Source: a virus. From it: DNA of 36,144 bases. The position numbers and the translations under genes were made by a program. The notes beneath the pieces are model-generated. The model made no database searches. It saw only the letters and a list, made by a program, of their open reading frames with translations, and was not told the DNA's origin. This document shows, in pieces, positions 1 to 11,215 of this stretch (positions within the stretch are counted from its first letter, which is position 1; each line of letters begins with the position of its first letter). The stretch spans positions 1 to 36,144 of the IMG/VR virus record IMGVR_UViG_3300013104_000473. The stretch is one strand, 5' to 3'.

Positions 1-530
1 AACCATCACCCTTCGCTACCAAACGTTGGGTGGCGGCCATACGCGGGTTGGTAGACCGGTCGCACTAGAACCCGGCGCCCACGAATGAGCCCCACGCATG
101 ACCACCATGAAATCCGAGCCCTGCAAAAGGGCTGCATACGGTGACGCCATGAGTCTAGAACGAAGCGGGCTACCAAACCCGATCACTGGTTTTCAGTGAC
201 CCGAGAACGATAAAAGCCACGGGCTAGACGCACAAGCCGGCGGATTCTGTCTTAGGTGTAGGGGGTGGCGCAAGGATGTGTAGGGTTTGGATGACTACAA
301 CAATACTTATTTAAACAAGCTCAGGGATTTGTGACTCGTGAAGCGCTTGTTCTACTACAAAGTTTCGATCGGACCGATGATGGATTGGGCATAGCCGCCT
401 ACTTGCTCCCCGGGCCGCTTGGCTATAGGTCTCGTTGCGCGTTGCTTTGTAGCAACTTTTAAGCATTCAATTACTTTCCCACTCAAAGCAGTACTGGTAC
501 GAGGCTCATCCCCTTCGTTAGCAGCCGGTG
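1..530. other. Gene-free left margin with hairpins
   Basis: I see no convincing gene here. The stretch holds short inverted repeats: CTACCAA at 16-22 pairs with TTGGTAG at 48-54, and TCACTG at 183-188 pairs with CAGTGA at 194-199 across a 5-base loop. The decamer GCTACCAAAC occurs twice (15-24 and 169-178). The rest is AT-richer and unremarkable. It could be a structured leader or a dispersed intergenic element of the host chromosome; nothing visible decides between these. Confidence 0.4.
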
Positions 531-758
531 ATGTCAGACGAGTATTCGTTATCCGATTATGAGCAGGGAAGAATTGACCAGAGTCAGCTTGGTCTAGAGA
601 CAGCTCTGGCGCTGACTCCTCATGCTGTCCATGACAAGGTGGGGGCTGAACCTGGGGTCAACGGTCTTAGTGCATTGCGGGCGATTAGCAAGAACGCTGG
701 GACCTCCGAGCAAGTGTTGGCCAGGCTGAAGGGAAAAATGGGGGCTAAGCTCAATTGA
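531..758 (+). CDS. Small hypothetical protein (paralogue A)
   Basis: A 75-residue acidic to neutral protein with no membrane segment or known catalytic motif. A GTG codon at 528 is also in frame, but the ATG at 531 gives a start (MSDEYSL) resembling the related small protein at 5848-6063. The two align along their length: EYSL near the N-terminus, a QL-x-LE-x-AL block, and a C-terminal I-x2-NAG-x3-Q-x-(I/L)ARL block. No good ribosome-binding site precedes it. Function unknown. Its position just before a restriction-type module, with its relative just after, suggests a marker of the same insertion hot spot or an accessory role, but that is inference. Confidence 0.55.
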   Translation: MSDEYSLSDYEQGRIDQSQLGLETALALTPHAVHDKVGAEPGVNGLSALRAISKNAGTSEQVLARLKGKMGAKLN

Positions 759-1078
759 CTAAAACCGTTTCGGGATCATTGCCGCCTGATCACTTTTCCC
801 GCCGTAAACGAACATTCAGAAAGGGCCGATTCGAGCTGCAATGCGAACGCTTATCATCGAAAATCAAGCTTTCGCAATAAAAGTCGATAATCTACGCCGA
901 GCAGCAGTGGCCTGACAGCCAATCGCTGTGCTATATGGTTTCTTACGCTTAGAACCGCCGACCACCGTCAGTGAAGGGGTTACAGCCAGTGACGGGCTAT
1001 AGCCAGTATCCGAAGCACGCAGCGAAATCTTCGCATAGACAATACCTAACACCTCACATAACAGCGGGAGAAAAGGAA
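759..1078 (+). other. Intergenic leader before the GHKL ATPase gene
   Basis: About 320 bases without a supported gene. It must hold the promoter of the downstream ATPase gene. A GATAAT hexamer at 885-890 could be a -10 element, but no convincing -35 partner is present. The frame of the ATPase is open upstream to 971, but that stretch is low in family-like sequence and lacks a ribosome-binding site, so I treat it as leader. Confidence 0.35.
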
Positions 1079-3115
1079 ATGAATGAAGCTACAAGAATGG
1101 AACCCGCCGAGTTACATATCGCCCCTTCCACAACCGAGCTATATACCTTATCCATCGATTTGAACGTACTTGAGCATCTAGGTATAAATCTATATAGCAA
1201 TGTTCCAGCAGTACTAACTGAAGTTGTTGCAAACGCATGGGATGCCAACGCAACGACTGTCGACATCCATGTCGACCCCGACCTTAACTTCATCTCCATT
1301 ACGGACAATGGCTTTGGTATGAAAGTCGAGGATATCAACAACAAATTTTTACGTGTAGGTTATAAAAAGCGGGCAGGAGATGTTGATCTAACACCTGCTC
1401 CTTTTTTGCGCCCCGTAATGGGACGAAAGGGGGTTGGCAAGCTCGCTCCGTTCTCTATCGCAGGATCTATTGAGGTCTACTCAACGTGTAATGGCACTAA
1501 AAGTGCTCTATCAATGAACGTCAATGATATCAAGAAGGCCGCTAGCGACAGAGATGACCAGGGGAACCCTAAAAAACCTGAGAGCTACCATCCTCAGCCT
1601 ATAGCTCCTACACACTGTCCCGAAACGAATGGTACAGTCATCCGTCTTTATGACCTTAAGAAAGATCGAATCAGAGTAGAAAACCTAGCGCAACGTCTTG
1701 CGAGACGTTTTTCTGTAGTTGGAACTTCTGAATTTACTGTCAAAATAAGCGGGAAGTCTTTAGACCCTAGGGAAATAACAAACCGAGATCGTGGCGATCT
1801 GGATAAACTTCAATATTTGTGGACTATAGGCGACTGGAAAAAACCTGACTGGGTCAATGGCGTAAAACGTGAAGCAACTCTCGAAGGTAGGCTGGAAGGA
1901 TGGGCCGAGGGCATTAATGTTAGAGGTTGGATAGGTACAGTAAATAAACCTAAAGACCTTGAGTCTGTCGCTGGAAATCTTAATGTAATCGTCATACTGG
2001 CTCGTGGCAGGCTATTCCAAGAGAACATTCTTGGCGACGTCAACGATGGTCGCTATTTTATGAGCTATCTAGTAGGACAAATTGAAGCGGATTTTCTAGA
2101 CAGCACTCCACAAGATGATATCGCCACCAGCGACCGTCAGCGCGTCAAAGAGGATGATCCTCGTTATGCGCTCCTTATTTCTTATCTGAAAAGCGCGTTA
2201 TCGAAAATTGAGGCAAAATGGAGTGAATGGCGCCCCCTTGACAGGGTCGCGGTAGTGAAAGTAACCAATGCAGCTGTCACAGAGTGGTTCAGTTCGCTCA
2301 AAGGTGTTCAATTAAACCAAGCGGAAAAGCTAATTGGTCGTATTGTCGCATTAGATTACGAAGATCCCGAAGAGGAAAAAATCCTGTTAAAGCACGCCGT
2401 TCTCGGATTTGAACGTCTGCGACTGACTGGCAACGCCAGCGAGTTATCCAATGCTGTGACAGTAGGCGCTTCCGCCCTTCTTCCGCTACTAGCCGACCTT
2501 GAAGCTGTTGAGGCGTCCCTCTACCGTGACATTGTGCTGGGTAGACTTGATGTCATTAAAGCATTTCTTACAAAAATAGAGGCTAACGATTTAGAAAAGA
2601 CGCTTCAAGAATTCCTTTTTAATCATCTTTGGTTGATTGACCCTTCATGGGAAAGAGTCTCAGGTTCAGAAATTATTGAGAAACCTGTAAATGCTGAATT
2701 CGAAAAGATCAAAGCAGACCTGACACTCGAAGAGATCAGAGGGCGCGTCGATATAAAATATAGAACTATATCTGGTAAGCACGTCATTATTGAGCTAAAG
2801 CGCCCCGATAGAAAAGTTTCGGTTGACGAATTGATTGAGCAAGGGCGCAAATACAAGAACGCTCTCATTAAATGCCTGCGCGAAAGGCAGAGACACAATG
2901 AACCTTATGAATTTATTTTCGTTCTTGGAACAAAACTCAAAGAGGACGATGACATTGAACAAACTGATTACGTCAGACTCCAGCTTGAATCAATTAAAGG
3001 AAGGGTTGTTCAATTCCAGAATTTGGTGACCAGCGCTCAAGAGGGTTATAGAGAATATCTGGATGCGAGCTCCAAGGTAGATAAAATTGGAAAACTCGTC
3101 AAAAGTTTTGAGTGA
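1079..3115 (+). CDS. GHKL (MORC/MutL-like) ATPase with C-terminal nuclease-like domain
   Basis: A 678-residue cytoplasmic protein. The N-terminus is a Bergerat-fold ATPase: N-box E48-x3-N52-x2-D55A, then DNGFGM at 76-81, then GRKGVGKLA at 115-123. These bind Mg-ATP and drive dimer clamping in MutL, MORC and Hsp90 relatives. The C-terminus reads D558-x13-E572-L-K574, the core of a PD-(D/E)XK nuclease, preceded by a FLFNHLWLIDPSW segment like those before Shedu-type nuclease cores. I chose ATG 1079 because GGGAG (1066-1070) sits 8 bases upstream; the frame opens earlier at 971 but without a site. The next gene, a Vsr endonuclease, overlaps its end, and a cytosine methylase lies beyond. MutL/MORC-type ATPases next to Vsr and methylase genes are known from computational surveys as predicted restriction systems. 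The likely role is ATP-dependent restriction of foreign DNA. Confidence 0.82.
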   Translation: MNEATRMEPAELHIAPSTTELYTLSIDLNVLEHLGINLYSNVPAVLTEVVANAWDANATTVDIHVDPDLNFISITDNGFGMKVEDINNKFLRVGYKKRAGDVDLTPAPFLRPVMGRKGVGKLAPFSIAGSIEVYSTCNGTKSALSMNVNDIKKAASDRDDQGNPKKPESYHPQPIAPTHCPETNGTVIRLYDLKKDRIRVENLAQRLARRFSVVGTSEFTVKISGKSLDPREITNRDRGDLDKLQYLWTIGDWKKPDWVNGVKREATLEGRLEGWAEGINVRGWIGTVNKPKDLESVAGNLNVIVILARGRLFQENILGDVNDGRYFMSYLVGQIEADFLDSTPQDDIATSDRQRVKEDDPRYALLISYLKSALSKIEAKWSEWRPLDRVAVVKVTNAAVTEWFSSLKGVQLNQAEKLIGRIVALDYEDPEEEKILLKHAVLGFERLRLTGNASELSNAVTVGASALLPLLADLEAVEASLYRDIVLGRLDVIKAFLTKIEANDLEKTLQEFLFNHLWLIDPSWERVSGSEIIEKPVNAEFEKIKADLTLEEIRGRVDIKYRTISGKHVIIELKRPDRKVSVDELIEQGRKYKNALIKCLRERQRHNEPYEFIFVLGTKLKEDDDIEQTDYVRLQLESIKGRVVQFQNLVTSAQEGYREYLDASSKVDKIGKLVKSFE

Positions 3116-3524
3116 ACACTCAAAAAAAATGCGCGCCGTAAGGCGCGCCAATACAAAGCCTGAACTCGCTGTACGAAAGGCACTTCATGCACAAGGCCTG
3201 CGATTTCGAATTCATCAGAAATCTCTACCGGGTACTCCCGACATAGTTTTAGCCCGACATCGTACCGTCATTTTTGTACATGGTTGTTTTTGGCACAGAC
3301 ATCAATATTGTCGATACGCATCAATTCCCAAGACCAGGCAGGATTTTTGGTCAGACAAATTTCAATCCAACATCGCGCGCGATAAAAAAAATGAAGCCCA
3401 ACTTTCGGAGTTGGGCTGGCGTGTCATCATAGTCTGGGAATGCGAAACACGGGAGTTAAACATTCTAAAAGATCGGCTTAAGCTATATTTTGGTTTCGAA
3501 GCACCGCAGCTTCGTAATCTCTGA
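3087..3524 (+). CDS. vsr: Vsr-family DNA mismatch/very-short-patch endonuclease
   Basis: A 145-residue endonuclease. Classical Vsr nicks beside T:G mismatches made by deamination of 5-methylcytosine and so protects methylated sites; in defence operons Vsr relatives may be the cleaving subunit. Visible family residues are E26, the catalytic D52 in LPGTPD, and H65, C67, W69, H70, H72 and C75 in the VHGCFWHRH block, which holds catalytic His and zinc ligands; a late WECE motif adds another Cys. Positions are one off from E. coli Vsr, which supports a start near TTG 3087, with AAGG at 3074-3077. TTG 3108 is an alternative. It overlaps the upstream ATPase gene by 29 bases, so translation is probably coupled. 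Its 3' end overlaps the convergent methylase gene by 47 bases. Confidence 0.88.
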   Translation: MENSSKVLSEHSKKMRAVRRANTKPELAVRKALHAQGLRFRIHQKSLPGTPDIVLARHRTVIFVHGCFWHRHQYCRYASIPKTRQDFWSDKFQSNIARDKKNEAQLSELGWRVIIVWECETRELNILKDRLKLYFGFEAPQLRNL

Positions 3525-4542
3525 CATGTTTCATTAAACTTTCGCCTATAACTTCGCCTAAACGAACAGGCACTGCATTACCGATCATTCGCCCTACCGT
3601 TTTAAAGGTAATCTCATCAGGCTTCATAAACTGATAATTTCTAGGGAAAGACTGAAGAATCGCCGCTTCTCTAAGTGATATCGCTCGAGCTTGCTGTGGG
3701 TGCCCAAATCGTCCATTGCCAAACCCGTAACATAACGTTGTCATCGTGGGGCTTGGCTCTTCCGCTTTCATTCTTCCGTATACACTACCGTAAGTTTTAC
3801 CACTCTCTTTACGATGACAAGCGGCTACAAGATGTGCAGGCCAATCACGCCATGTTCCTCCCTCACGAGAATGTAGAATGCGCTGCATATTGATGGGAGT
3901 GAGAGTAGCCGAACGATGCATCGGATCATCAGGGTCGCAATCACCGGCGGCTATTCTTGGAAGTCCTCCAATAACATCCATAACACTGACGGGTTGCCCC
4001 AAATGAGTAGGGGGTATGAGTTCTATTTCCCCTAACTTAGACGCCAGTAAAACATGACGCCGCCGCTGTTGTGGAAGGCCATACTCTACGCAGGATACTT
4101 TATTTGCCCAAATTTTATAATTTTGTTTTTCAAGGCTCTCAACAAAATCGTTATAAACTTTATGTTTAGTAACATCAGGCACATTTTCCATCGTGACCAA
4201 TTCGGGCTGAACTTCACGAATTAAACGAGCGAAGTGATACAGCAATGGCCACTTGCGGTCGCTGCTAGTGTCTTTTCCTTGATTGTAACTAGAAAAAGGC
4301 TGGCATGGCGCACATCCGGCAAGCAGTCGATAAGCACCCTCACCACGCTCGTACCATGCGTTCAGCTCGTCGCTGGATACCTTCTTAACGTCTTTAGCTA
4401 CGAATGCCGCACCATTATTTTCGCTATACGCAAACTCGCACTGGCGCTCAATATCGTAGCCTGCGTGCACGGTAATGCCGGCGTTTCTCATGCCTGCGGT
4501 TAAGCCGCCGGCGCCACAAAATAGGTCTACTGCGTCAATCAT
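3478..4542 (-). CDS. dcm: DNA (cytosine-5-)-methyltransferase
   Basis: A 354-residue enzyme that transfers a methyl group from S-adenosylmethionine to C5 of cytosine in a specific DNA site. The ordered C5 motifs are clear: motif I DLFCGAGG (6-13), motif IV with catalytic PCQ at 79-81 (nucleophile C80), motif VI ENV (119-121), motif VIII Q158-x-R160-x-R162, motif IX SLREAAILQSFP and motif X GNAVPV near 321-326. The target-recognition region (about 190-275) is short. No residue looks missing. It faces the Vsr gene tail to tail, as expected of a methylase and its repair or restriction partner. The target sequence cannot be read from the protein. It probably protects host DNA from the ATPase/Vsr module. 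Confidence 0.93.
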   Translation of the reverse strand: MIDAVDLFCGAGGLTAGMRNAGITVHAGYDIERQCEFAYSENNGAAFVAKDVKKVSSDELNAWYERGEGAYRLLAGCAPCQPFSSYNQGKDTSSDRKWPLLYHFARLIREVQPELVTMENVPDVTKHKVYNDFVESLEKQNYKIWANKVSCVEYGLPQQRRRHVLLASKLGEIELIPPTHLGQPVSVMDVIGGLPRIAAGDCDPDDPMHRSATLTPINMQRILHSREGGTWRDWPAHLVAACHRKESGKTYGSVYGRMKAEEPSPTMTTLCYGFGNGRFGHPQQARAISLREAAILQSFPRNYQFMKPDEITFKTVGRMIGNAVPVRLGEVIGESLMKHVRDYEAAVLRNQNIA

Positions 4543-4573
4543 GGTGAACGTAGTCTCTTAGTCGAGGCGCATT

Positions 4574-4921
4574 TTAGCCCTTCACGGCTTTAAGTCTAGG
4601 AGGGATTCTCTTCGGACTCAGCCAACCGTCTTGTAACGTGAACGTTACCTCGTCCTTCAGGAAGACATCTGCTGGGTACCGCTTAATTGAGGCTCCTAAG
4701 TAGCTTGCAACATCCTTCTCAAAATACTCGATTATCTCAACTTCCCAATAGAAGTACCCATGGTCTGTTTCTATCTCAAACGGAATGATAATTTTTGCCC
4801 ATTCGTTCCCTGAACGCTCTGGCTCATTCGCTTCCAGCTGAACAATTCCCTCACATGGGATGGGGTATTCACGCTCGCCGTAGACGTAGCTACCGTCTGT
4901 GCAGATTTCAATCCAATACAT
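4574..4921 (-). CDS. Hypothetical protein upstream of the methylase
   Basis: A 115-residue protein that I do not recognise. It is rich in aromatic and acidic residues (paired YFYWEVEIIEYFEKD near the middle) and looks like a small all-beta domain, with no membrane segment, signal peptide or Cys cluster. AAGGA lies about 9 bases before ATG 4921, so the start is well supported. The gene ends 31 bases before the methylase start on the same strand, so the two are probably co-transcribed. It may be an accessory, controller or immunity component of the restriction-type module, but no helix-turn-helix is visible and the function is open. Confidence 0.6.
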   Translation of the reverse strand: MYWIEICTDGSYVYGEREYPIPCEGIVQLEANEPERSGNEWAKIIIPFEIETDHGYFYWEVEIIEYFEKDVASYLGASIKRYPADVFLKDEVTFTLQDGWLSPKRIPPRLKAVKG

Positions 4922-5486
4922 TTTCTCATCCTTGCTGCACGATTAAGCACAATGATCGATCACGAGAAGAGCTACGTCAATCACCGCTTCTACCTGCATG
5001 CGACCCTCCAAAAGAAATGAAAAAGAAATGGGGACTGATTTATTTACCAGCCTCAAGACCTGCCAGCCCGCTCTTCCGATGCTCCCAAGCCCCACCTCCC
5101 CATTCCTGATAAACTCCCCCACCTCCCAGCCACACCGATTCCGTACCCCCAATGCCCCCAATCACCGCCACACCCGCCCCACTCTCCCGCCGTTTCTCCG
5201 TCGCCCCCATGATGGATCGGACTGACTCCATTTTTACCTCCCGCAAATAAAGGCCCAAACGCGTTGCCATCATCCCGCGTACCACTTGCGTACCAGCTCT
5301 GTTCTTCTACCTCCTTGTCCCATCCCCTCTGCCGACTGCGTTAGCAAATTTTAAGCAGCGGTTCTCGGCTCCAATCCTGGCACTGTCTATCGTCGGCTCA
5401 GGCGAGCTTTGTGAGAGTTAGACCGCATGCAAGGAAAGCCGGCCGATCTCCCCCTTTTTCGCCTTCCCCCGTTTTCAGGTTGACCC
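4922..5486. other. Gene-free stretch with low-complexity C-rich DNA
   Basis: No supported gene. On the plus strand 5040-5210 is C-rich and almost free of G, which opens spurious frames on both strands. The 20-mer AAATGGGGACTGATTTATTT at 5026-5045 resembles a motif I associate with dispersed gammaproteobacterial elements related to Y1 transposases; no transposase is present here. The promoter of the minus-strand pair 4921-3478 should lie at the left edge, but I cannot place its boxes. Confidence 0.35.
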
Positions 5487-5780
5487 CTGGGAAAAAGGTA
5501 ATTTTGGTAATTTTCTTTTTTATCCTCAAAAAAACCCAATAGAATCAGTATCTTATTGAGGATTGGCAAAGGTAATAATATGGTAATAGACAGGTTAGAA
5601 AATTACCCTTAGTCGTAGTAATTTCACTCACCTACGAAACCCTTTAAAATCAATGAGTTGCTGAAATATTACCTCCAGCCTTACCAAATATTACCTTCAA
5701 AGGTAATACCTCAAAGCCACGTTCTATAAGGGCTGCAGCGTTTTTTTCGCACTGACTTACCAAAATTACCTTTTTCCCAG
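5487..5780. repeat. 294-bp element bounded by a perfect 24-bp inverted repeat, filled with GGTAAT sites
   Basis: Bases 5487-5510 and 5757-5780 are exact reverse complements over 24 bases (starting CTGGGAAAAAGG). Inside, GGTAAT or its complement ATTACC occurs nine times: 5497, 5506, 5571, 5582 and 5702 on plus, and 5602, 5668, 5690 and 5765 on minus. Two near-copies (CTTACC) lie at 5680 and 5756. ATTACCTT (5690-5697) and AAGGTAAT (5700-5707) form a perfect palindrome with a 2-base spacer. No target-site duplication is obvious. It could be a multi-site operator, an iteron-like origin or centromere-type region, or a MITE-like remnant. The small gene at 5848 begins 67 bases later and may be under its control. 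Confidence 0.75.
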
Positions 5781-5847
5781 CCTCGAACTGAATTCCTACC
5801 CCTCAGGCCCCTGCTATGCTTCCTTCTTCACCAATGGAGTCGAGCGC

Positions 5848-6063
5848 ATGGCCAGCGAATATTCCCTCCCAATAGTTCTCGAAAAAATCTATGAAAATCA
5901 GCTCGCGTTAGAAGCCGCGTTGATGGAGTTGGTACTCCTATCGGAACAGCGTGGATACGATGTTGTCGGGGAGAACGCTCGCGGTGCTCTCGAGCGAATA
6001 GGCGAAAATGCAGGCTTTATTAAGCAGGGTATTGCCAGGCTGATCATGAACGAAAAAGACTGA
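5848..6063 (+). CDS. Small hypothetical protein (paralogue B)
   Basis: A 71-residue, mostly helical, acidic protein. GGAG at 5836-5839 lies 8 bases before ATG 5848, a good start. It resembles small proteins I associate with Pseudomonas accessory regions, and aligns with the product at 531-758 (EYSL; QLALEAAL; IGENAG; GIARL). It has no catalytic motif. It follows the GGTAAT repeat element and precedes the PARIS-like pair by about 200 bases that hold no gene. Function unknown. Confidence 0.7.
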   Translation: MASEYSLPIVLEKIYENQLALEAALMELVLLSEQRGYDVVGENARGALERIGENAGFIKQGIARLIMNEKD

Positions 6064-6269
6064 CTGCAGTAGCTGCGAGGCTCTACATAGCGGCCTATCT
6101 AATCCGATCGCTAATGCACGGAATGCGGAGGGCCAAACAGCCGGTATCGTGGCGTTTGAGAGGTCCCCCAAGGGATGAAATGCCATGGATTTCACTACGC
6201 GACATTCAAACCGTTTTCCGGCATGATGTCATTTTGCAGCCACCCAATATTAGCCAATCGAAGGAGTGA

Positions 6270-7586
6270 ATGGTGCACCTCATCAAATCTTTCACAATCG
6301 AAAAACTTTGGGGTCACGCCCCCACCATTAGTGTTAACTTGGATGATCAATTCAACTTTATAATCGGGCGTAACGGCACTGGAAAAACTACAGTAATCAA
6401 TCTACTTGCAGCGGTTTTAACCGTTGACTTCGAAAGACTTGACAGAATAGATTTTGAAAAAGTCACTATTGTTTTCAAAGAAGCAGGTAAACGTAAAAAC
6501 CCATCTGTTGAAGTCGTTAAAACTCAAAAAGAGGGTCTACCTTATTGCGATATAAATTACGCGATGAGGGAATCTTCCAAGGACGTCCCAGTCAACTATG
6601 ATGTTGATGCCCTCGAGCATGAGCGTTTTTATAGAGGCGCGCCACCACGAGTTATGAGAGAGCGACTTTTCAGGGAACGCTTTGCCGACATTCGTGAAAG
6701 CCTAAATTCATTAATTAAAGTATCTTGGCTATCAGTGCATCGCCACAGTGATGAATCACGATTGCATGAAGATCGGAAATTCGTACCAGCAATCGACCAA
6801 AAGCTCAGAGACCTTAACAACAGCTTAGTTCGCTACTTCTCAACCCTAACCAAAAAATATGCTGACCATACATTAGAGTTCCAAAGAAAAAGCTTCCTAT
6901 CTGTTTTAACACCAGATCGTGTTGAGTCGGTATTTAGTTTTGCCAAAAAATTAGACCTCGAGCAAGAACGAGCGACTCTGGGCGAAATCTTTCAAGTACT
7001 AGGTGTAGAACCAAGGCACTACAACCAAAAATTAAAGATCCATTTTGACAAGTTAACCAAATCCATTGAAACTACCAGGATAAACAGCCACGCGGTTGCA
7101 GTAGATGATTTCGCAACTCTCTATAATGCGTGGCGCGCACATTCTCTCGTCGCAGACTACGAAGAGCTTCAAGCCAAGAAAACAGAGATATTTAAACCGA
7201 GAGATTCGTTTATAGAGATCATCAACGTATTGCTGGAAGGGCGGAAAAAAATTTCACTCTCCGAAAAGAACGAGATCACTTTCAGCACTGAAGTTAAAGG
7301 AATCTCAAAGCAAGCCAAACGAAAAGATATTCTTCTTGAAGAGCTATCATCTGGAGAAAAACAACTACTGATTATTTTAGGAGAGGCACTCTTACAGCAA
7401 TCGACACCATCCATATACATTGCTGACGAACCAGAACTTTCTCTGCACGTATACTGGCAAGAACAGCTCACCTCTGCGATATCGCAATTGAATTCTAACG
7501 CACAGATAATCTTCGCTACACATTCCCCTGATGTTGTAGGTATCCACGAAGATAAAATAATAGACATGGAAGAGATTCTGGCATGA
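6270..7586 (+). CDS. ariA: PARIS-type ABC ATPase (AriA-like)
   Basis: A 438-residue SMC/ABC-type ATPase. Walker A is GRNGTGKT at 33-40; an ABC signature LSSGEKQ begins near 359; Walker B ends in ADEPE with D386-E387; a late ATHSPD gives the H-loop. The middle (about 100-330) is a helical insertion typical of OLD/PARIS-like ATPases. AAGGAG (6261-6266) precedes ATG 6270 closely; GTG 6273 would have better spacing. The stop overlaps the start of a DUF4435 gene as ATGA. In PARIS, AriA assembles a scaffold that holds AriB inactive until a phage anti-restriction protein such as Ocr is sensed, then releases it. The assignment rests on the ATPase-DUF4435 pairing; other ATPase-Toprim pairs are possible. 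Confidence 0.8.
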   Translation: MVHLIKSFTIEKLWGHAPTISVNLDDQFNFIIGRNGTGKTTVINLLAAVLTVDFERLDRIDFEKVTIVFKEAGKRKNPSVEVVKTQKEGLPYCDINYAMRESSKDVPVNYDVDALEHERFYRGAPPRVMRERLFRERFADIRESLNSLIKVSWLSVHRHSDESRLHEDRKFVPAIDQKLRDLNNSLVRYFSTLTKKYADHTLEFQRKSFLSVLTPDRVESVFSFAKKLDLEQERATLGEIFQVLGVEPRHYNQKLKIHFDKLTKSIETTRINSHAVAVDDFATLYNAWRAHSLVADYEELQAKKTEIFKPRDSFIEIINVLLEGRKKISLSEKNEITFSTEVKGISKQAKRKDILLEELSSGEKQLLIILGEALLQQSTPSIYIADEPELSLHVYWQEQLTSAISQLNSNAQIIFATHSPDVVGIHEDKIIDMEEILA

Positions 7587-8449
7587 AATTCACTCGTACC
7601 CGGAGCGGTCTTAAAAATTTTGGTCGATTCTTTGGTGCTGACTTAACACTTTATGTAGAGGGGCGGCTATTAACTCAGCTACCAATCGAAGACCCCACTA
7701 GACCTGATACCAAATTTTACAACGCTTTATGCTCGGAATACCTCAAGGGTAGAAAGGTTAAGGTAAAGCTTACGGGAAATAGAAAGAGTGCCCTTGGTTA
7801 CCATGAGAAAATCATAAAATCTTCCATACCAGACTCCTTGGTCATCGTCGATCGCGATTACGACGGCTTACTTGTTAGTCCTTTAGAAAAGCCAAAACTC
7901 ATATTAACCTACGGCTATAGCTGGGAGAATGATTTCTGGACAGAAGCGCTGATACTAAACACGCTTAACATTTCCACTGCTTCTGACGCAGGCGTAATAG
8001 ATCTTGCATCGACAAAATTGAGGCGAGCCTTACGCCGACTTGCCAAATTGAGCGCACTGAATGCTGCTGCGCATATTAATGGAAAATCTATATTTCCCGG
8101 AAAGAAAAACTCCAAAGGTTTGAACATTGATGGAGGTTCAATGTTCCCGATCTCTAAATCGGAGTTCCATCGACTCGCTAGTGGCTTACCCAGCATGTGC
8201 GAGGTAATGAAAAACGTTCACCACGCCGCCCTTGGAACTTGTCAAGAAAAAATCATTCAAGGACACCTCTTAGAGTATGTATCGCTCTTTCTCCTTTCAT
8301 ACACTTATACAATGTCCACTAGCACAATTTTAAAAAACAACACCATCTTGGTAAATATTGCTTTGAGTCTCTTTGCAGACAACCCAACTGCATATATCTC
8401 AACAAACGCCGACGATTATTATCGGAGAGAGTTTGCTCGCGCAATTTAG
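7583..8449 (+). CDS. ariB: DUF4435 Toprim nuclease (AriB-like PARIS effector)
   Basis: A 288-residue protein of the DUF4435 type. The Toprim-like core is visible: TLYVEG with E26, then VIVDRDYD with D90 and D92, followed by GYSWEND near 112-118. As I recall, the E. coli AriB active-site mutant is also at E26, which fits. In PARIS the freed AriB dimer cleaves host tRNA (tRNA-Lys in E. coli), stopping translation and phage growth. It starts inside the ATPase stop codon (ATGA), so the two are coupled. The C-terminal third is helical with no motif I recognise. Its actual substrate cannot be read from the sequence. Confidence 0.8.
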   Translation: MKFTRTRSGLKNFGRFFGADLTLYVEGRLLTQLPIEDPTRPDTKFYNALCSEYLKGRKVKVKLTGNRKSALGYHEKIIKSSIPDSLVIVDRDYDGLLVSPLEKPKLILTYGYSWENDFWTEALILNTLNISTASDAGVIDLASTKLRRALRRLAKLSALNAAAHINGKSIFPGKKNSKGLNIDGGSMFPISKSEFHRLASGLPSMCEVMKNVHHAALGTCQEKIIQGHLLEYVSLFLLSYTYTMSTSTILKNNTILVNIALSLFADNPTAYISTNADDYYRREFARAI

Positions 8450-8487
8450 TTACCAACGGATTATTAACTATTCAATCCCACATATTA

Positions 8488-8519
8488 CGTCCAAGTCTCC
8501 CGTGCAAGGGGCTTGGACG
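8488..8519 (+). terminator. Inverted repeat after the PARIS-like pair
   Basis: CGTCCAAG (8488-8495) pairs with CTTGGACG (8512-8519); CCC and GGG inside can extend the stem. It begins 39 bases after the ariB-like stop and is followed by a weak T-containing run (GTTTCC). It is placed as a transcription terminator would be, though the T tract is poor. Confidence 0.45.
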
Positions 8520-8809
8520 GTTTCCATGATTTTCCTCAATTGCGTGGAGATTAGTTGCCATTGAGCTGCCCTCCAAGCGTTTGACCAATGCTGAACTTTG
8601 AAAATCGCAAACCACCCGCAGCCCCAATTCCTGTGGCTTTCGGTTAATAATCTGCCTCTCCAAATAGATTCCGGAAACTCAATGATGCGACCCAAACAAA
8701 ACAGAAAAAGAGGTAAATCTTAGGTTTTTCAAAGCCCCTACCCTTGTAATCCGTGGGCTCCAAGCAGACCACCCTAATCCTGCCTACACGCGGCGCTAAT
8801 TAGAATCGC

Positions 8810-8842
8810 TGCAATCTTTTGCAAAATCTTGCATTCCGTGCA
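8810..8842. repeat. TGCA sites at helical-turn spacing
   Basis: TGCA begins at 8810, 8820, 8830 and 8839, so spacing is 10, 10 and 9 bases, with AT-rich flanks (for example TTTGCAAAATCTTGCATT). Two more lie at 8894 and 8911. The arrangement is like that in the phage repressor control region at 32733-32788, so it may bind the same or a related regulator. No gene start lies directly beside it. Confidence 0.4.
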
Positions 8843-9195
8843 ATTCGATCCCTCGTACCGATACCCATTGCGGCCCTGGACGGGATCGGCCTTTGCACTT
8901 TCCCCCCTTTTGCACAAAAGGATTACACAGAGCCCGCCGGCGGGAGGGGGATAAGTGCTTTTTCGGAAAAAATTTTCCTTCTGGATAGCTTTCTCAAACG
9001 CCTTTACCGTCGACCGTTCAGAAACCTGCAGAGTGCCAGACAGCGATACCAATGGTATTCAAGAGACTAAAGTGGAATTGGCAGCATGCACAGGTAACAA
9101 ATAGCCTCACACCCGCAAAATGCTGCCTGATCTCTCCCTACAGGATCGCTCTCACATTTCGTCTATGATTCATAGCCATTTTGCCTTGGTCGGTG

Positions 9196-9225
9196 TTGGC
9201 GAGCGCCTCCAAGCTTCGTTAGAAT
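9196..9225 (+). promoter_or_regulatory. Candidate sigma-70 promoter for the ParA-RelA/SpoT pair
   Basis: TTGGCG (9196-9201) and TAGAAT (9220-9225) are separated by 18 bases. Initiation would be near 9232, leaving a leader of about 120 bases before GTG 9355. Prediction by eye only. Confidence 0.35.
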
Positions 9226-9354
9226 GAAGGGGTGCTGTAGCTATATGTATTTGAAGCCGTGTGGCCGAGGGTTCTTCTCACCCAAATCGCGCAGCTGCTA
9301 AGCGTTTTTTGCATCGAAGCAATTGAGATACCAAAACCAACAAGGAGAGGCTGC

Positions 9355-10461
9355 GTGAAAGTTATTTCGGTTTTCAACAATAAAGGAGGAGTGGGCAAGA
9401 CAACTTTAACTTACCACTTGGCTCACGCTCTATCAGAATCCGGCAAGAAGGTACTGATGATCGATGCTGATCCTCAATGCAACTTGACGATCTACTCATT
9501 AGAGCAGGAAGTGGTACACGCTATTTGGGAAGCGGAGGATTCTTTCATAGATGAAGGATTCGAGTCATCGAAGGAAAGAGTCGGCACGATTCAGTTTGGA
9601 GTATTAAACGCAACTCCACGAAGCTTGCATTACCTACTAAAACCTACCGAGGAAGGTACAGGCGAACTGGAATACCTCCCCCCACCATACAGAATCAGCC
9701 CAAACCTAGACATTATTCCAGGCAGGCTCACACTGCACCTTTATGAAGAGAAAATTGCTAGCCGCTGGACTGATACCTATAGGGGCGAACCACTCGCAAT
9801 TAGAACCATTACCAAAATAAGATCTCTCGCCGAGCAGTATGCAAAAGAGCACGACTATGACTATGTCATAGTTGACACCTCGCCAAGCCTGGGCTCACTT
9901 AACAAAGTAATCATTTCTACAGTTGATGGTTTTTTTGTTCCTGCTTCTCCTGACTTGTTTTCTCTTTACGGCATTAGAAACATTGGCAAGGCCCTATCCT
10001 CTTGGAAAGATGAGTTTGAGATAATTTACAAACTAATATCGACGGAAAAAAGACATAGCTTTCCTGAAAAATTTGTAACCTTTCTCGGATACACCATCTA
10101 CAATGCAAAAAAATATAGTGGATACAATAACAAGTGGGACTTAGCCCAAGCGCATCTTAACTACGCCAACCAAATCCCTAGCACTATAGAGCAATGTATC
10201 GGTTATGATTTGCGCGCACATCTTTCCGCCGAACTTCTAGCTCAGCCTATTGGTGGAACAGTTGTTATGCACAGCCACAACACCTTCCCCTCGATGGCAC
10301 AGCATTACCACAAACCCATGTGGCAAGTACCTTCCCTCAAAAACATCGAAGAAGACCACGTTAATACTTTGAGGGGGGCGAGCCAACGGTACGAAGAAAC
10401 AAAGGGAAGCTATATAGCCTTTGGTGAGGATCTGATATCTCGTATTAAGCTACTGGACTAG
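9355..10461 (+). CDS. ParA-type P-loop ATPase paired with a RelA/SpoT synthetase
   Basis: A 368-residue deviant Walker A ATPase. KGGVGKTT spans 10-17 with signature K10; Walker A' region VLMIDADPQCN spans 33-43; a Walker B-like VIVDTSPSLGSLN has D174. Such ATPases dimerise on ATP and move or sense DNA or protein cargo. It is longer than simple ParA proteins, with inserted segments near 50-115 and a long C-terminal region (about 220-368). I chose GTG 9355 because AAGGAG (9342-9347) lies 7 bases before it; the open frame reaches back to 9259 without family sequence. No ParB gene or plasmid replication gene is nearby, so simple partition is unlikely. The RelA/SpoT gene follows after 4 bases, suggesting a sensor-effector or toxin-control pair. 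That role is inference. Confidence 0.8.
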   Translation: MKVISVFNNKGGVGKTTLTYHLAHALSESGKKVLMIDADPQCNLTIYSLEQEVVHAIWEAEDSFIDEGFESSKERVGTIQFGVLNATPRSLHYLLKPTEEGTGELEYLPPPYRISPNLDIIPGRLTLHLYEEKIASRWTDTYRGEPLAIRTITKIRSLAEQYAKEHDYDYVIVDTSPSLGSLNKVIISTVDGFFVPASPDLFSLYGIRNIGKALSSWKDEFEIIYKLISTEKRHSFPEKFVTFLGYTIYNAKKYSGYNNKWDLAQAHLNYANQIPSTIEQCIGYDLRAHLSAELLAQPIGGTVVMHSHNTFPSMAQHYHKPMWQVPSLKNIEEDHVNTLRGASQRYEETKGSYIAFGEDLISRIKLLD

Positions 10462-10465
10462 CACA

Positions 10466-11194
10466 ATGCCTAGAGAAGCGATTATCAATGCAGCTGTTGA
10501 AGCATATCAAAATGAAAAACATTTTTTTGAAAAGTTCTTAAACGGCGTTGTCGACTCTTTTAGGCTAGAGCCTAGTTTAAATCGTTACGGCAACCCTTTA
10601 ATCTACACAATCAAAAGCCGTCTAAAAGATTCCGCTCATTTAAAAGAAAAAATTTCCAGAAAATGGTCAGATGACAACCCTATAACAGCGGATAATCTTT
10701 TTCAGCAAGTAACCGATCTCGCAGGCGTGAGAGTTCTACATCTTTATCAAGACCAGTTCCCCGAAATTCACGCCCACATAATTAAGCAAGTAGAAGCAGG
10801 CGATTGGTTTTTCAGAGAGCCTCCAGTTGCTTATTCATGGGATCCTGAAGCCAGCAGATTCTTTGAGTCCTTGGGTCTCAGCGCAGTAACTAGGGAAACT
10901 TATTACACGAGCATTCATTACATTGTAAGCCCCAAGCAAAACTCCACAATATACTGTGAGATCCAAGTCAGAACTCTTTTTGAAGAGATATGGGGAGAGA
11001 TTGATCACACGATCAACTATCCAACGCCCACAAACAGTAGATCGTGCAAGGAGCAACTTCGAGTTTTATCTAAGCTGGTATCAACTGGCACTAGACTTGC
11101 TGACTCTATCTTTAGGAGTCAGAAGGAGTTGAACGAGCAAGAAGCGGAAGCGCGATCTAAAGTAGAGGCATCTGCTGACTCAGAAAAACCTTAG
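10466..11194 (+). CDS. Stand-alone RelA/SpoT-type nucleotide pyrophosphate transferase
   Basis: A 242-residue single-domain synthetase. RelA/SpoT motifs appear in order: R52-x-K54-x-S56-x3-K60 (ATP site), D84-LAG-x-R89, Y146-Y147-TS-x-H151 (G-loop and acceptor site), E165-I-Q167-V-R169-T170, and E178-x2-H181. This family moves pyrophosphate from ATP to GDP/GTP, and in toxic members to adenosine nucleotides or tRNA. There is no HD hydrolase domain and no TGS/ACT region, so it should be synthesis only. The tail (about 215-242) is charged and coiled-coil-like. Its start is 4 bases after the ParA-type stop, with no strong ribosome-binding site, so it is likely coupled. An uncontrolled synthetase would be toxic; the ATPase partner may restrain or trigger it. 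Known anti-phage toxSAS systems carry other antitoxins. Confidence 0.85.
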   Translation: MPREAIINAAVEAYQNEKHFFEKFLNGVVDSFRLEPSLNRYGNPLIYTIKSRLKDSAHLKEKISRKWSDDNPITADNLFQQVTDLAGVRVLHLYQDQFPEIHAHIIKQVEAGDWFFREPPVAYSWDPEASRFFESLGLSAVTRETYYTSIHYIVSPKQNSTIYCEIQVRTLFEEIWGEIDHTINYPTPTNSRSCKEQLRVLSKLVSTGTRLADSIFRSQKELNEQEAEARSKVEASADSEKP

Positions 11195-11215
11195 CCCGTC
11201 CCTAAGTCTCGCTAG

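Follow-up and report, generated by a model that had tools for sequence, protein, structure and literature searches.

Four adjacent genes in a 36,144-nucleotide stretch of virus DNA, hereafter the window, encode a GHKL ATPase with its own nuclease-like domain, a Vsr endonuclease, a C5-cytosine DNA methyltransferase and a small orphan protein. This arrangement raises the question of whether the genes form a restriction system and which product would cut foreign DNA; a preliminary description of the locus had not decided whether Vsr repairs methylation damage or is the restricting nuclease. Our analysis indicates, with a probability of about 0.85, a phage-borne Type II-like restriction-modification (R-M) system of the BbrUII/HgiDII (paraMORC3) family, in which Vsr and the orphan would be accessories.

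Gene content of the module and family of the ATPase-nuclease

The module at 1079-4921 consists of four intact open reading frames, located as first described (Table 1). Profile searches clearly identified the ATPase, Vsr and the methylase, and the orphan is without a family. The Vsr frame opens at a TTG at 3087, and a second TTG, at 3108, overlaps the stop codon of the ATPase gene and is the likelier start. The orphan gene is located 31 bases upstream of the methylase gene on the same strand.

Table 1. Genes and predicted catalytic motifs of the module, in window positions
Feature	Positions	Strand	Evidence
paraMORC3 / BbrUII-HgiDII GHKL ATPase-nuclease, 678 aa	1079..3115	+	NF050001; HATPase_c_3; AlphaFold2 model with MORC3 fold
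GHKL ATP-binding motifs E48/N52/D55, D76xGxG80, G115RKGxGK121	1220..1441	+	near-invariant in 136 homologues; codon positions
Predicted PD-(D/E)XK active site E534, D558, E572-x-K574	2678..2800	+	conservation in 136 homologues; SduA_C / PDDEXK profile matches in family members
Vsr T:G mismatch endonuclease	3108..3524	+	TIGR00632; alignment with E. coli Vsr 1cw0
C5-cytosine DNA methyltransferase, 354 aa, convergent with Vsr	3478..4542	-	PF00145; target recognition domain (TRD) conservation
Orphan protein, 115 aa	4574..4921	-	kept in loci L002 and L012; no family match

The ATPase-nuclease matches NF050001, the NCBIfam equivalog model of the BbrUII/HgiDII restriction enzyme, with 749.2 bits (curated cut-off 550 bits) over residues 22-676 and model positions 1-658/659. 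The nearest PADLOC models are Type II restriction enzymes, and the Pfam model HATPase_c_3 is matched with an E-value of 1.4e-19. The domain order is GHKL, S5 plus helical regions, and C-terminal PD-(D/E)XK nuclease. In a PDB fold search with an AlphaFold2 model (pLDDT 80.6), the best solved fold was MORC3 (Z 24.8, rmsd 3.2, 295 aligned positions, match over residues 25-385), closely followed by Hsp90 proteins; this comparison spans residues 25-394, with the nuclease domain outside that span.

ParaMORC3 proteins with a C-terminal restriction endonuclease (RE)-fold domain were described by Iyer, Abhiman and Aravind in 2008 (PMC2292703). Their hallmark of GHKL motifs followed by an S5 domain is found in the window protein, in which the motifs are near-invariant relative to 136 homologues scoring at least 300 bits and the MORC3 ATPase fold covers the corresponding region. 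The second hallmark, an RE-fold domain with an E-D-ExK signature, is predicted from the conserved residues E534, D558, E572 and K574 and from PD-(D/E)XK profile matches in family members. D558 and K574 are present in all 136 homologues, and E572 is a glutamate in 134 and an aspartate in two. The Shedu profile SduA_C (PF14082) is the top Pfam match of the nuclease domain in 16 of 22 members. In the window protein, SduA_C and other PD-(D/E)XK profiles match weakly; SduA_C reaches 18.7 bits with the whole protein and 23.2 bits with the nuclease domain alone, which is below the gathering score of 27 and does not make it a Shedu member by Pfam. A PDB search with a nuclease-domain profile gave no solved relative.

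Two further assignments were discarded. The ATPase scores 37.2 bits against the MutL model TIGR00585, which has a cut-off of 180, and the GhXhhpXXRhl motif in the S5 domain of MORC proper is absent from the window protein and from all 152 family rows. Thus, the earlier label of a MORC/MutL-type ATPase holds for the fold, which is closest to MORC3, and has to be given up as a class, because the protein is neither a MORC proper nor a MutL. It is a paraMORC3 and a member of the named BbrUII/HgiDII family, and the system is already known in kind. The nuclease domain proposed for the ATPase is borne out by its conserved PD-(D/E)XK residues and by the published RE-fold of the group, and the likeness to computationally predicted restriction modules proved apt, since the module matches the paraMORC3 systems of that work (PMC2292703).

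The methylase partner and its predicted target

Related loci were collected by an alignment-based scan, which yielded 80 genome loci and 69 viral loci, with the ATPase mapped in 66 of the latter; a single-sequence search of the genome contigs had given no match. A C5 methylase is found near the ATPase in 61/80 genome loci and 65/66 viral loci, or 126 of 146 in total, near-copies being included in these counts. It lies within 1.9 kb of the ATPase, mostly abutting or overlapping, and the association is not due to chance. The two genes are co-conserved, and the ATPase-nuclease and the methylase make up the constant pair of the module. The minimal gene content pointed out in the preliminary description is not a novelty: the two-gene form of ATPase and methylase is the commonest arrangement, and the family already has a curated name. 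The identical four-gene cassette was found in L002, where the ATPase is 80% identical to that of the window.

The survey also retrieved more distant ATPase relatives, which are 24-26% identical. Among the close homologues, one paraMORC3 clade (L015 and L026, also L016, L017, L019, L025 and L096) is without a C5 methylase. In the two members examined, L015 and L026, the ATPase homologue is encoded in DISARM-like operons with DrmD-like helicases; the L015 operon also contains a DrmMI/Type IIG-like methylase and a KAP NTPase, and the L026 operon an AspBHI-like methyl-directed enzyme. The ATPase-nuclease seems to be a portable unit, used in Type II-like as well as DISARM-like systems, rather than tied to one target or system type.

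The window methylase is recognized by PF00145 (E-value 6.5e-49, 167.5 bits) and TIGR00675, in both cases above the cut-off, and its translation contains the PC and ENV motifs (APCQPF, MENVP). In a comparison of 105 partner methylases, drawn from bacteria, haloarchaea and phages, the mean identity to the window is 54% in the TRD and 49% in the catalytic half. This conservation supports one target shared by the family, because diverse targets would predict the opposite. M.HgiDII and M.BbrUII recognize GTCGAC (PMC5867850; PMC5005818), which is probably also the target of the window methylase; this prediction is derived from the family model and the published work and not from a sequence alignment to M.HgiDII or M.BbrUII. 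GTCGAC is not avoided in the window, which contains 24 sites compared with 9.1 expected from dinucleotide shuffles and 19.7 from a maximum-order Markov estimate. As the excess mostly disappears under the Markov estimate, the counts are uninformative and were dropped as evidence for the target.

Vsr, the orphan and the restricting nuclease

Vsr exceeds the cut-off of TIGR00632 (152.7 versus 97.85 bits), matches the Pfam Vsr model with an E-value of 1.2e-27 and aligns to E. coli Vsr (1cw0) with an E-value of 4.6e-34. The equivalents of the active-site residues E25, D51, H64, H69 and D97 are all kept, which fits the established role of Vsr in repairing T:G mismatches after deamination of 5-methylcytosine (PMC12907096). 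The cut could conceivably be assigned to this enzyme: Vsr would act as the restricting nuclease, or as a nicking subunit essential for restriction, and would be loaded on unmethylated targets by the ATPase in the role of a MutL-like recruiter. E. coli Vsr acts with MutL, itself a GHKL ATPase (PMC2292703), and the window vsr gene comes immediately after the ATPase gene and overlaps it, a placement that is the commonest for Vsr in the family. However, Vsr is encoded near the ATPase in only 26/80 genome loci and 18/66 viral loci (44/146 in total) and is missing from about 70%, and its place and strand vary between loci. A tree built from 122 distinct ATPases calls for many gains and losses of Vsr, with at least 15 changes in one Vsr group and at least 6 in the other required by the starred branches. 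L093 and L094, the nearest sister loci, share the convergent layout, contain no Vsr and, with 52-59 bases between the ATPase and methylase frames, have no space for one. In addition, the GHKL and nuclease residues are intact in the 136 homologues with or without Vsr. We therefore rejected Vsr as the restriction nuclease and consider such a role highly improbable. Because Vsr is optional, is absent from the sister loci and leaves the active sites of the ATPase unaffected, the role of restriction enzyme most likely falls to the ATPase-nuclease, with Vsr as an accessory nickase for T:G mismatch repair. The initial question is thus largely answered in favor of repair, as far as comparative evidence can indicate. 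In the sister loci, the ATPase-methylase gap is filled by a hairpin between A and T runs (L093:4330-4420, L094:7930-8020), which resembles a bidirectional terminator.

The nuclease domain could also be read in the light of Shedu. VcSduA has the same GHKL plus nuclease layout and is described as a stand-alone defence system (PMC12137116), and the prominence of SduA_C among the Pfam matches of the family points in the same direction. The paraMORC3 protein would then sense an infection cue instead of the methylation of a site, and the methylase and Vsr would serve only for self-marking or be incidental. We regard this as quite improbable, because the methylase partner is nearly universal, its TRD is conserved and the ATPase matches a restriction-enzyme equivalog. 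That the module is decaying, non-functional cargo is suggested by its deviating base composition (44-47% G+C versus 61%), and is scarcely credible when all frames are intact, the catalytic residues are kept and the whole cassette is preserved in L002.

In the favored R-M system, phage and host DNA would carry 5-methylcytosine, placed by the methylase at a fixed palindromic target that is most likely GTCGAC. The paraMORC3 protein would dimerize via its GHKL ATPase and engage DNA, and its C-terminal PD-(D/E)XK domain would cut unmethylated DNA, presumably in an ATP-dependent manner, and thereby destroy phage or plasmid DNA that enters the cell. In the related single-protein system VcSduA, ATPase and nuclease mutants each abolish phage defence (PMC12137116). 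Vsr would nick T:G mismatches that arise from deaminated target cytosines and thereby spare the target sites from mutation. A bolder version, which we consider unlikely, portrays the paraMORC3 protein as a MORC-like clamp that is gated by ATP, scans DNA, cuts only once it has sensed the methylation state of its site and is controlled by the phage-specific orphan, with or without Vsr. A clamp of this kind would restrict DNA by a mechanism other than simple Type II cutting and would serve as a model for MORC proteins.

The orphan has a 55% identical counterpart in the four-gene cassette of L002 and a 78% identical one in L012, where it is located at a prophage edge and the record stops right after it, so that any cassette beyond is not visible; in the distant L130, it is split over two frames. 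Its retention in L002 and L012 shows that it is a real, if rare, gene. It is absent from the other six ATPase-Vsr-methylase loci that were checked (L013, L014, L021, L028, L030 and L095) and has no match in Pfam, NCBIfam, PADLOC or PHROGs. Searches of plasmids, phages and 369 gammaproteobacterial genomes, the last run without a positive control, likewise found no match. The structural model is of low confidence and mostly beta, with one weak PDB match (E-value 0.017). Our guess is that this gene upstream of the methylase encodes a lineage-specific accessory, possibly a regulator.

Phage cargo and comparison with known systems

The remaining window is a P2-like phage with P2 capsid, scaffold, terminase, portal, sheath, tape measure, Ogr and CII genes, and its nearest phage is Pseudomonas phage UFJF_PfPro (77.6%). 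Downstream of the tail genes, positions 1-11,200 are low in GC and contain the module. In L002, the cassette is flanked by an integrase gene on one side and a gpD-like tail gene on the other, which supports its status as phage cargo. No attachment site was seen in the window itself. The prophage that carries the four genes as cargo is P2-like and of Pseudomonas type.

Other cargo accompanies the module. An AAA ATPase and a DUF4435 protein (6270-8449, plus strand), with matches to the AriA and AriB models, constitute a PARIS-like defence system adjoining the R-M module. Between the two lies a perfect 24-base inverted repeat (5487-5780) with arms 246 bases apart and TTACC/GGTAA-rich sequence between them. 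In the same low-GC cargo, a ParA-like ATPase gene is followed after 4 bases by a RelA/SpoT-domain gene (9259-11194, plus strand), and this pair may represent another defence or toxin module. Defence hotspots are a known feature of P2-like phages, and an anti-restriction protein acts as the trigger of PARIS (PMC9122126), which makes layered defence a plausible interpretation of an R-M module beside a PARIS-like pair.

A named but little-studied restriction family is thus shown as cargo of P2-like phages. The comparative evidence bears on the division of labour, in which the ATPase-nuclease would restrict, the methylase mark and Vsr act as an optional repair enzyme. Because the ATPase folds like the MORC proteins of eukaryotes, a phage-borne R-M pair of this small size may be a handy model for the control of DNA cleavage by MORC-type ATPases.

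Among known systems, the BbrUII/HgiDII Type II R-M systems (NF050001) share with the window the ATPase-nuclease, matched at full length above the cut-off, and the C5 methylase partner; the window adds Vsr and the orphan, and its target is a prediction. The paraMORC3 systems of PMC2292703 have the same GHKL, S5 and C-terminal RE-fold (E-D-ExK) architecture and belong to a group of families that occur beside cytosine methylases and Vsr, whereas the window cassette is without a helicase gene. VcSduA, a type I-D Shedu protein of Vibrio cholerae (PMC12137116), also fuses a GHKL ATPase to a Shedu-like PD-(D/E)XK nuclease; it is described without a methylase, in contrast to the window protein. In Escherichia phage PhiR44_1 (PV340563), a ParaMORC3 and Dcm pair is likewise cargo of a P2-like phage, with a convergent methylase and a 38% identical ATPase, but it lacks Vsr and the orphan and occupies another site in the phage. 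E. coli Dcm/Vsr also combines a C5 methylase with a Vsr repair enzyme; unlike the window methylase, Dcm is solitary, targets CCWGG and has no restriction enzyme.
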